Positions 9,276-12,404 of a stretch of 64,000 bases of DNA are shown piece after piece. Positions within the stretch are counted from its first letter, which is position 1. Every line of letters starts with the position of its first letter. Both the position numbers and the translations under genes were made by a program. The stretch spans positions 5,746,001 through 5,810,000 of the forward strand of contig NZ_VFNX01000001.1 of NCBI RefSeq assembly GCF_006715785.1, given 5' to 3'. Source of the DNA: Streptomyces puniciscabiei. Lineage in GTDB: Bacteria; Actinomycetota; Actinomycetes; Streptomycetales; Streptomycetaceae. The notes under the pieces were generated by a model. The model worked only from the letters and a program-made list of their open reading frames with translations. It did no database searches and had not been told where the DNA came from.

Positions 9276-10601
9276 GTGAGCGAGACGGACACGGCCAGGA
9301 GCGTCACCGGCGAGGACGAGGTCGTGGACCTCTGCCGCGAGCTGATCCGGTTCGACACCAGCAACTACGGCGACCACTCCGGCCCCGGCGAGCGGGCGGC
9401 CGCCGAGTGGGCCGCGGAGAAGCTCGCCGAGGTCGGACTCGAACCGAAGATCTTCGAGTCGCACCCCGGCCGCGCCTCGACGGTGGCCCGCATCGAGGGG
9501 GAGGACCCGTCCCGGCCCGCGCTGCTGATCCACGGCCACCTGGACGTCGTACCGGCCAACGCCGCCGACTGGACCCACGACCCGTTCTCCGGCGAGATCG
9601 CCGACGGGTGCGTGTGGGGGCGCGGGGCCGTCGACATGAAGGACATGGACGCCATGACCCTGGCGGTCGTGCGCGACCGGCTCAGGAGCGGGCGGCGGCC
9701 CCCGCGGGACATCGTGGTCGCCTTCCTCGCCGACGAGGAGGCCGGCGGCACCTACGGCGCCCGCCACCTGGTCGACCACCACCCCGAGCTGTTCGAGGGC
9801 GTCACCGAGGCGATCAGCGAGGTCGGCGGCTTCTCCTTCACCGTCAGCGAGCAGCGCCGGCTCTATCTGATCCAGACGGCCGAGAAGGGCATGCACTGGA
9901 TGAAGCTGACCGTGGCCGGCACCGCCGGGCACGGCTCGATGATCCACCGCGACAACGCCATCACCGAACTGTCCGAGGCCGTGGCCCGGGTCGGCCGGCA
10001 CAAGTGGCCGGTGCGGGTCACCAAGACCACCCGGGCCTTCCTCGACGAACTGGGCGACGCCCTCGGGACCGAGCTGGACCCGGAGGACATGGAGTCCACC
10101 CTGGCCAAGCTCGGCGGCATCGCCAAGCTGATCGGCGCGACCCTGAGCAACACCGCCAACCCGACCCAGCTGAACGCCGGTTACAAGGTCAACGTCATCC
10201 CGGGCCAGGCCACCGCGCACATCGACGGACGCTTCCTGCCGGGCCACGAGGAGGAGTTCCTCAGCGACCTCGACCGGCTGCTCGGGCCCCACGTGCGACG
10301 CGAGGACGTGCACGCCGACAAGGCCGTCGAGACCAGCTTCGACGGCGCCCTGGTGGAGGCCATGCAGTCCGCGCTGCTCGCCGAGGACCCCACCGCCAAG
10401 GCGATCCCCTACATGCTCTCCGGCGGCACCGACGCCAAGTCCTTCGACGACCTCGGCATCCGCGGCTTCGGCTTCGCCCCGCTGAAGCTGCCGCCGGAGC
10501 TGGACTTCGCCGGCATGTTCCACGGCGTGGACGAGCGGGTGCCGGTGGACGGCCTGCGGTTCGGCGTCCGCGTCCTGGACCGGTTCATCGACGCGTCGTG
10601 A
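9276..10601 (+). CDS. M20/M25/M40-family metallopeptidase (dipeptidase-like)
   Basis: The 441-residue protein shows the M20 di-zinc signature in order: HGHLDVVP (about 87), WGRGAVDMKD (about 113) with the shared Asp, LADEEAGG (about 145) with the catalytic Glu, and SGGTDAK near 387. A lid/dimerisation domain lies between. Members hydrolyse dipeptides or N-acyl amino acids in the cytoplasm. Start GTG 9276 has GGGAGGA upstream. No operon partner is evident; it is followed by the chaplin genes but separated by a promoter-bearing gap. Confidence 0.85.
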   Translation: MSETDTARSVTGEDEVVDLCRELIRFDTSNYGDHSGPGERAAAEWAAEKLAEVGLEPKIFESHPGRASTVARIEGEDPSRPALLIHGHLDVVPANAADWTHDPFSGEIADGCVWGRGAVDMKDMDAMTLAVVRDRLRSGRRPPRDIVVAFLADEEAGGTYGARHLVDHHPELFEGVTEAISEVGGFSFTVSEQRRLYLIQTAEKGMHWMKLTVAGTAGHGSMIHRDNAITELSEAVARVGRHKWPVRVTKTTRAFLDELGDALGTELDPEDMESTLAKLGGIAKLIGATLSNTANPTQLNAGYKVNVIPGQATAHIDGRFLPGHEEEFLSDLDRLLGPHVRREDVHADKAVETSFDGALVEAMQSALLAEDPTAKAIPYMLSGGTDAKSFDDLGIRGFGFAPLKLPPELDFAGMFHGVDERVPVDGLRFGVRVLDRFIDAS

Positions 10602-10756: not shown

Positions 10757-10990
10757 ATGATCAAGAAGGTCGTCGCTGCTGCGGCTGCCACCGGTGGGCT
10801 GGTTCTCGCGGGCGCGGGCCTCGCTGTCGCCGACGCCGGAGCCCAGGGTGCCGCCGTGCACTCCCCGGGTGTCGTCTCCGGCAACGTCGTTCAGGTGCCC
10901 GTGCACGTCCCGGTGAACGTCTGCGGCAACACGGTCAACGTGATCGGGCTCCTGAACCCCGCCTTCGGCAACACCTGCATCAACAAGTGA
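10757..10990 (+). CDS. chpH: Short chaplin ChpH
   Basis: The 77-residue precursor has a Sec signal peptide (MIKKVVAAAAATGG..AVADAG, cleavage near 26) followed by one chaplin domain of about 50 residues. The domain has SPGVVSGN, VPVHVPVNVCGN and LLNPAFGNTCINK, and the two conserved cysteines. Chaplins are secreted, assemble into amyloid-like surfactant films and let aerial hyphae and spores become hydrophobic. ATG 10757 follows an ideal AAGGAGG at 10746-10752. ChpH is one of the short chaplins present in most streptomycetes. It is followed by a strong terminator and chpC. Confidence 0.95.
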   Translation: MIKKVVAAAAATGGLVLAGAGLAVADAGAQGAAVHSPGVVSGNVVQVPVHVPVNVCGNTVNVIGLLNPAFGNTCINK

Positions 10991-11148: not shown

Positions 11149-12126
11149 ATGCGACACGGCACCCGCAAGGGCCTGATGACAATGGCGGCGGCCACCGGTG
11201 TGATCGCCGCCGCGAGCGGCTATGCCCACGCCGACGCGGGCGCGTCCGGCGCCGCCGTCGGCTCGCCCGGCGTACTGTCCGGCAACACCGTGCAGGCGCC
11301 GGTCCACGTGCCGGTGAACGTATGCGGCAACACCGTGAACGTCGTCGGGCTGCTCAACCCGGCCGCGGGCAACACGTGTGCCAACCACGGCGGTGCCTCG
11401 GGCGGTCATGGCGGCTCCGGCGGCTCGCACGCGGGCGGCCACAGCAGCGGCTCGCCGGGCGTCGGTTCCGGCAACACGGTCCAGGCGCCGATCGACGCCC
11501 CGGTGAACGTATGCGGCAACAGCGTGAACGTCGTCGGGCTGCACAATCCGGCCGCGGGCAACACGTGCGTCAACCACGGCGGTGCCTCGGGCGGTCATGG
11601 CGGCTCCGGCGGCTCGCACGCGGGCGGCCACAGCAGCGATTCGCCGGGCGTCGGTTCCGGCAACACGGTGCAGGTGCCGATCGACGTCCCGGTGAACGTA
11701 TGCGGCAACAGCGTGAACGTGATCGGAGTCGGCAACGACGCCGCGGGCAACGACTGCGGCAACGGTGGCGGCGACCACAGCCGGCCACCGGGCGGCGGTC
11801 ACGGCAACCCGCCCGGACAGCCGGGTCACCCCGGACAGCCGGGTCACCCCGGACAGCCGGGTCATCCGGGTCACCCCGGTCACCCGGGACACCCGGGTCA
11901 CCCCGGAAGCCCGGCGACGCCGCCCGGCCACGGCGGCCACACGCCTCAGGGGCCCCATGGGCCGAGCCAGGTCCACCAGCAGGGCGGTCGCTCCGGCCAC
12001 TCCCTGACCGGAGGCCAGCTCGCACACACCGGCAGCGATCTGCCGGTGGGTCTCGCGCTGCCGGTCGGCGCGGGCGCGCTGCTCGCCGGCGCGGTGCTCT
12101 ACCGCAAGGCGCGGGCCACGGCCTGA
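11149..12126 (+). CDS. chpC: Long, sortase-anchored chaplin (ChpC-like) with three chaplin domains
   Basis: The 325-residue precursor starts at ATG 11149, after AGGGGAAAA; an in-frame ATG at 11047 lies in the chpH terminator. A signal peptide ends near AHADAG (residue 29). Three chaplin domains follow, near residues 30-79, 98-142 and 161-204, each with SPGVxSGN, VPVNVCGN and two Cys. A Gly/Ser/His linker joins the first to the second and again the second to the third. Next come a Pro-Gly-His/Gln stalk (about 210-255), the sortase signal LAHTG near residue 290, a hydrophobic segment and the basic tail YRKARATA. Long chaplins are anchored to the cell wall by class E sortases and normally have two domains; three is unusual. 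Confidence 0.93.
   Translation: MRHGTRKGLMTMAAATGVIAAASGYAHADAGASGAAVGSPGVLSGNTVQAPVHVPVNVCGNTVNVVGLLNPAAGNTCANHGGASGGHGGSGGSHAGGHSSGSPGVGSGNTVQAPIDAPVNVCGNSVNVVGLHNPAAGNTCVNHGGASGGHGGSGGSHAGGHSSDSPGVGSGNTVQVPIDVPVNVCGNSVNVIGVGNDAAGNDCGNGGGDHSRPPGGGHGNPPGQPGHPGQPGHPGQPGHPGHPGHPGHPGHPGSPATPPGHGGHTPQGPHGPSQVHQQGGRSGHSLTGGQLAHTGSDLPVGLALPVGAGALLAGAVLYRKARATA
11382..11759 (+). repeat. In-frame tandem duplication, 189-bp unit, in chpC
   Basis: Bases 11382-11570 and 11571-11759 are two copies of a 63-codon unit (linker plus chaplin domain). Roughly the first 150 bases differ at only about five positions; the last 40 diverge. The end of copy 1 instead resembles the end of the first chaplin domain (around 11340-11380). 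So the middle domain is a hybrid, as unequal crossing over between two adjacent domains would produce. Confidence 0.85.
11815..11904 (+). repeat. Pro-Gly stalk repeats in chpC (18-bp and 9-bp units)
   Basis: Three 18-bp units beginning GGACAGCCGGGTCA (11815-11868, encoding Gly-Gln-Pro-Gly-His-Pro) are followed by four 9-bp units (11869-11904, Gly-His-Pro). The protein stretch has Gly and Pro at fixed spacing like a short collagen-type or extended wall-spanning stalk. Such units tend to vary in number between strains. Confidence 0.8.
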
Positions 12127-12215: not shown

Positions 12216-12404
12216 TCACCACGTGGCACGCACCTGGCGGATGATCCGCCGGCGCAACCGCACCCTGCGGCTGCCGTCGCGCAGCAGGCTCAGTCGGTCC
12301 AACTCCCAGTGTCCGTACTCGGCATGGTCCGTCAGCAGACGCGTGGCCTCCTTGCGGGACACCCCGCGAGGCACGTACACGTCGACAAATTCGTATTCCG
12401 GCAT
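12216..12404 (-). CDS. Small basic protein, DUF5703 family
   Basis: The 62-residue product reads as a compact alpha/beta protein. It begins PEYEFVDVYVPRGVSRKEATRLL, contains HAEYGHWELDRL and ends in a strongly basic RVRLRRRIIRQVRATW. It is conserved in streptomycetes without known function. Start ATG 12404 has CACAAT exactly seven bases upstream, the same leaderless arrangement seen at 6763. It is divergent from the gene at 12452. Confidence 0.7.
   Translation of the reverse strand: MPEYEFVDVYVPRGVSRKEATRLLTDHAEYGHWELDRLSLLRDGSRRVRLRRRIIRQVRATW

Follow-up and report, generated by a model that had tools for sequence, protein, structure and literature searches.

The window analysed here is a stretch of 64,000 nucleotides of Streptomyces puniciscabiei. 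It contains a long chaplin gene, preceded by a short chaplin and lying between two conserved neighbours. The features are as follows, with positions counted from the first base of the window.

9276..10601, forward: gene of what we take to be the M20 peptidase family, which adjoins chpC in relatives and serves as the flank marker
10757..10990, forward: short chaplin upstream of chpC, 77 aa, PF03777 at 102 bits, presumably to be named ChpH-like
11149..12126, forward: three-domain long chaplin gene of ChpC type, 325 aa, start ATG at 11149, stop at 12124-12126
11149..11238, forward: N-terminus resembling a signal peptide, residues 1-30, as judged from the sequence
11239..11385, forward: chaplin domain 1, residues 31-79, pure domain-1 type, profile score +27.0
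11386..11427, forward: linker 1 (HGGASGGHGGSGGS), 42 bases, all identical to linker 2
11428..11574, forward: chaplin domain 2, hybrid, residues 94-142, front of domain-3 type and rear of domain-1 type
11522..11532, forward: putative recombination junction interval, bounded by the last domain-3-like and the first domain-1-like informative base on either side of the switch
11575..11616, forward: linker 2, a copy of linker 1 (42-base identity), within a 68-base exact repeat
11617..11763, forward: chaplin domain 3, residues 157-205, pure domain-2 type, profile score -41.5
11764..12018, forward: hydrophilic stalk with GHPGQP/GHPGHP repeats (9-bp-period repeats at 11794-11923)
12019..12033, forward: LAHTG, presumably a sortase-type motif, then a hydrophobic stretch and a basic tail up to the stop, again judged from the sequence
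12216..12404, reverse: conserved 62-aa gene downstream, the locus marker, present in 147 of 150 genus genomes (the window's own counted)

The open reading frame at 11149-12126 is clearly a chaplin: PF03777 matches three stretches of it with 245.4 bits, against a curated cut-off of 21. Its start was picked by eye from comparison with relatives (MRQ.TRKGLMT...), the list of reading frames giving a longer one from 11047. Each of the three domains has 49 codons, and the two linkers are an identical pair of 14 Gly-rich residues. A preliminary description of this DNA had recognised the three chaplin domains, at residues 30-79, 98-142 and 161-204, and the domain model agrees closely with those bounds. 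LAHTG, the hydrophobic stretch and the basic tail together form the C-terminal sortase-type signal of a long chaplin, by which the protein is predicted to be anchored. According to the portion of PMC13251363 available, each chaplin domain has two conserved cysteines; by eye, both are present in all three domains here.

NCBIfam held no family for either the long chaplin or the short one upstream. In a sequence search of the PDB there was no chaplin match; 11 of the 12 matches are to the stalk, with its collagen-like or low-complexity sequence, and the remaining one is weak (residues 28-117, E 0.39). The length of the 9-bp-period stalk array is itself likely to be variable.

The arrangement of a short chaplin upstream and the conserved 62-aa gene downstream recurs around the orthologues in relatives. 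For its make-up and this layout the gene is called ChpC-type, and we regard it as the ChpC orthologue, a putatively sortase-anchored long chaplin. The names chpC and chpH, for the long and short chaplin gene pair, are taken to be those of S. coelicolor. The textbook ChpC has two chaplin domains, while the gene in the window has three; since orthologues at this locus have one, two or three, we treat domain number as usual rather than defining. Elsewhere in the same genome there are two one-domain chaplin ORFs, on C7 (L003) and at C1:5588021 (L005), and a two-domain gene on C2 (L004/L008).

The hybrid middle domain

The three copies of the repeat begin at 11229, 11418 and 11607, a period of exactly 189 bp. 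This is the linker duplication at exactly 189 bp that the preliminary description reported, and the linkers are indeed identical over their 42 bases. Units 1 and 2 are identical at 160/189 bases, units 2 and 3 at 151/189, and units 1 and 3 at 130/189. The sequence that the linkers share is enclosed in a longer exact repeat, of 68 bases (11382-11449 and 11571-11638). As far as base 11522 the middle domain resembles domain 3; from base 11532 onward it resembles domain 1. A single switch, from a last-domain front to a first-domain rear, fits 32 of its 36 informative sites, and none of 2000 shuffles fitted as well. The preliminary description gave the matching tail as the last 40 bases of the domain; a domain-1-like tail is present, but it measures 43 bases from 11532 and runs on into linker 2.

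The same question was put to a profile that is independent of the window gene's own copies. It contrasts domain 1 with domain 2 and was built from 125 two-domain ChpC genes in an even sample of the genus (125 of 128, leaving out genes with a domain of another length than 147 bases or containing N); of the 125 second domains in this reference it misassigned 4. By profile type, domain 3 of the window gene is the counterpart of domain 2 in two-domain ChpC. For the middle domain the profile gives a switch from type 2 to type 1, with the best split at domain base 96 and a hybrid gain of 11.6 log units. Over the 250 reference domains the gain reaches 8.8 at most, with a 95% point of 4.3; this null slightly favours pure types because the same reference set trained the profile. 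The middle domain is thus confirmed as a true hybrid of domains 3 and 1.

A gene of the same kind is found in S. filipinensis JCM 4369 (L038). Its ChpC also has three domains with a hybrid middle one, and its best profile split is likewise at base 96 (gain 10.6), although its own sequence places the junction at 66-70 (29/34 sites, shuffle p 0.0005), compared with 94-104 in the window. When the domains of 22 genes are compared, each of the two middle domains has its best match in the other (131/147). Its linkers have 14 and 10 residues, whereas those of the window are both of 14 and identical. Uniqueness of the hybrid junction, which the preliminary description would have counted as support, is contradicted by the shared split; nor is a recent event supported, given this split and the presence of three-domain ChpC in other lineages. 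Since both species have three domains and the same best split, the event is probably older than their divergence. A clade of the two is not rejected in a flanking-gene tree (p-AU 0.49), but the tree leaves their fork with two-domain relatives unresolved, so that there could have been two events; one event common to both is the simpler reading. One flank match (G379:C2:6305320-6306222) keeps 95% identity across query bases 3-905 and ends there, unlike neighbouring listed relatives, which may reflect recombination in the flank.

Between the two species pN/pS is 0.029/0.260 for domain 1, 0.073/0.211 for domain 2 and 0.068/0.149 for domain 3, from few sites. Because pN is below pS in all three, the hybrid included, the extra domain appears to have been kept as protein in both.

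Three-domain ChpC in the genus

Three-domain ChpC is uncommon in the genus, yet recurrent. An even draw of 150 genus genomes gave 147 with the downstream marker and 146 loci other than the window's own, of which three lack a chaplin gene next to the marker (L130, L251 and L258, where the piece ends near it). Among the 143 resolved loci, two have three domains, 128 have two and 13 have one, two of the 13 being unreliable (L185, a run of N; L200, a broken frame). All 29 of the nearest non-own relatives by flanking DNA, taken from a second draw of 392 genomes that overlaps the first, have two domains, with one of them (L276) ending at a contig end 40 residues past the second domain. Most relatives thus have two domains, which the preliminary description had named as support for its reading, and three are not usual for ChpC, the possibility that it had named against it.

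The 30 best-matching loci of the 392-genome draw comprise the window and 12 others with three-domain ChpC at the locus, five three-domain paralogues elsewhere, and 12 two-domain genes. Together with G124 (L142), this makes three-domain ChpC present in at least 14 of the 392 genomes, a lower bound, since lower-scoring matches went uncounted. Two further sets are biased towards the three-domain query: 10 of the 80 best-matching named loci have three domains, and the best 120 of 4398 protein hits divide into 80 with two, 29 with three and 11 with four.

Some further forms were seen. The eleven remaining one-domain loci (L186, L190, L192, L193, L197, L203, L204, L205, L228, L237 and L257) are ChpC orthologues, by eye mostly with a long PG-rich stalk. 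They were considered as the reciprocal product of a crossover (domain-1 front, domain-2 rear) and rejected as such: the ten that could be scored are plain domain-1 type, L257 having a domain that is not 147 bases long. Three-domain long chaplins also occur away from the chpC locus in five genomes (L306, L309, L311, L320 and L322), and in L309 domains 2 and 3 are identical at 143/147 bases, which indicates a recent duplication. In a protein of Streptomyces sp. HUAS TT7 (P0087), domains 2 and 3 and the linkers that precede them are by eye nearly identical, which looks like another recent tandem gain.

The distribution was followed on trees of the flanking gene. A first, fast tree had 226 rows from 256 loci, those with the flank gene missing, shorter than 900 bases or identical being dropped. 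A careful tree of 61 rows, 12 of them three-domain, needs 7 changes of domain number, at least 6 of them forced. A second careful tree, again of 61 rows but with 20 three-domain (in eight of these the flank gene is covered by no more than 804-897 bases), requires 11, with at least 10 forced by well-supported branches. A single clade of all 20 is rejected (p-AU 3.6e-8), and with it a single origin. Loci with the same domain values were entered once (L296/L047, L299/L040, L304/L041 and L305/L044). The tree is that of a single gene and open to disturbance by recombination, and the changes counted may be gains or losses.

Clear hybrids by their own sequences occur in six lineages including the window, with junctions in differing places, and in four of them the profile gain is above the null maximum as well. 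In all five of the others, none of 2000 shuffles did as well as the observed order. The cleanest are those of S. brasiliensis (42/42 sites, junction 53-65, profile gain 12.8) and G213 (45/45 sites, junction 105-110), although in the latter the gain of 6.3 lies between the 95% point of 4.3 and the null maximum of 8.8. Strain AC558 has 35/36 sites, a junction at 20-44 and a gain of 14.8, and its relative S. caelestis also exceeds the null maximum, at 12.3. G198 (38/39 sites, junction 66-95, gain 12.1) and G301 (47/50 sites, junction 83-93, gain 7.7, again between 4.3 and 8.8) have overlapping junction intervals and are far apart on the tree. A weaker case is G260 (32/41 sites, shuffle p 0.034), whose gain of 7.2 also falls between those values. 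All six clear hybrids share one polarity, a last-domain front and a first-domain rear, and none of the middle domains scored had a gain of reverse polarity above the reference maximum of 8.6.

Not all triplications are simple hybrids, however. In the S. scabiei group the middle domains are wholly of domain-2 type and no hybrid was detected; in CB02400 the middle domain is patchy (a 3-1-3 pattern); and in NK08204 it is identical to domain 1 at 143/147 bases, with a profile gain of 5.4 that is inside the null. There are also signs of variation within species, as given by the source labels. Of two proteins labelled S. massasporeus that are otherwise very similar by eye, one has three domains (P0025) and the other two (P0044), and for S. 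europaeiscabiei there are a protein with four domains (P0006) and a locus with three (L043). Taken together, the sequences make it seem that the same kind of accident has happened several times over in the genus. This wider pattern, in which an amyloid domain is gained in frame again and again and always with one polarity, is of more interest than the one gene of the window.

Origin of the third domain and comparison with known systems

On the basis of these observations, we consider it probable that unequal crossing over between misaligned copies of chpC made the third domain. An ancestor, probably shared with S. filipinensis, would have held two copies of a two-domain chpC, on sister chromosomes or from different strains, which paired out of register with domain 2 of one opposite domain 1 of the other. 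Recombination within the conserved core (VNVCGN-T/S-VNV) would then have added one 189-bp unit of linker plus domain in frame, giving a middle domain with the front of domain 2 and the rear of domain 1, and a second linker copied from the first. In the window lineage the linkers probably stayed alike thereafter through further exchange inside the gene, and the same process would have been active repeatedly in other Streptomyces.

Unequal crossing over predicts the polarity, the duplication of the linker and a 189-bp unit that stays in frame, and the polarity is repeated at the junctions of other lineages. The product would be the same, a domain-2 front joined to a domain-1 rear, had replication slippage within one chromosome duplicated the unit by way of short stretches common to domains 1 and 2, no second copy of the gene taking part. 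Such stretches exist, with 9 bases shared by domains 1 and 3 of the window inside the junction interval and 22 just before it. As the products are identical, sequence cannot tell the two apart; slippage is nevertheless rather unlikely, since 189 bases counts as a long unit for it. Duplication of a whole domain, with the middle copy then patched from its neighbours by gene conversion, would suit the patchy domain of CB02400, and the linkers, identical over 42 bases in the window and unequal in S. filipinensis, suggest some later homogenisation. Conversion predicts both polarities, however, whereas the six clear hybrid lineages have one, and the single clean junctions (42/42 and 45/45 sites) require just one event; we regard it as improbable.

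That three domains are the old state, the two-domain genes being losses, is given slightly less credence still. The trees count changes rather than gains, three or four domains are found in named Catenulispora proteins and in genomes of other families, and later homogenisation within genes could imitate part of the lineage-specific pattern. Against this, 128 of the 143 sampled loci have two domains, junctions vary by lineage, and hybrid middle domains match the first and last domains of their own gene, as separate gains predict. Tandem repeats are a known source of assembly errors, but the units of the window differ by 29 to 59 of 189 bases and a diverged species, S. filipinensis, retains the architecture and the best profile split, so that an artefact is hardly credible. 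Unequal crossing over is then the preferred origin. The anatomy of the gene, the hybrid with its polarity, the recurrence and the two-domain background can be seen in the sequences themselves; the choice of crossing over above slippage, the timing of the event and the later homogenisation are what we infer. The preliminary description, which proposed the same mechanism, is partly supported: the mechanism is well supported in kind, and the unique, recent event is not supported.

If the process has acted repeatedly, the number of chaplin domains in ChpC becomes an evolvable copy-number trait. We lean, by a little, towards seeing ChpC as a functional-amyloid array of variable copy number. Misaligned recombination within the amyloid domain would repeatedly add, and presumably remove, domains in frame and always with one polarity. 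Populations would in this way carry standing variation in how many amyloid units, and of which type, each wall anchor bears. Changes of repeat length in the FLO adhesins of yeast are comparable variation. The repeated junctions make ChpC a compact bacterial case of in-frame domain gain by recombination, and its natural one-, two- and three-domain orthologues at one locus are a ready series in which aerial growth and the hydrophobicity of the surface could be related to how many amyloid domains each wall anchor bears.

We propose that the extra domain would offer one more joining place for short-chaplin fibres per wall anchor, and a longer projecting part; it may in this way add tethering sites and, as the preliminary description suggested, could alter surface assembly. 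Hydropathy of the domain halves was tried as an approximate stand-in for amyloid strength. In 88 of 125 two-domain genes domain 1 has a more hydrophobic rear than domain 2, and in the window the rears of domain 1, the hybrid and domain 3 have values of 0.65, 0.38 and 0.04. The pattern was dropped, as S. brasiliensis breaks it (domain 3 highest, at 0.98).

Among known systems, the chaplins labelled Catenulispora (P0030, P0036 and P0054) resemble the window gene, as proteins, in their tandem chaplin domains, but have four and belong to another genus. The ChpC of the S. scabiei, S. europaeiscabiei and S. ossamyceticus group shares the locus and the three domains, but its middle domain is of domain-2 type throughout the group, whereas that of the window is a hybrid. 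In the portions of the literature available, long chaplins are described as two-domain proteins (PMC3079736, PMC5618241, PMC8166509, PMC13251363) that are anchored to the wall, where their domains would help to tether the fibres of short chaplins; chpH and chpC, added to a strain with ChpE as its only chaplin, gave a robust sporulating aerial mycelium (both PMC5618241, PMC3079736). The Streptomyces ChpC that emerges from these excerpts (PMC5618241, PMC8166509) agrees with the gene described here in its PF03777 domains, signal-like N-terminus, hydrophilic stalk, LAxTG-type C-terminus and a short chaplin directly upstream, and differs from it in having two domains, where ChpC of the window has three, the middle one a hybrid.
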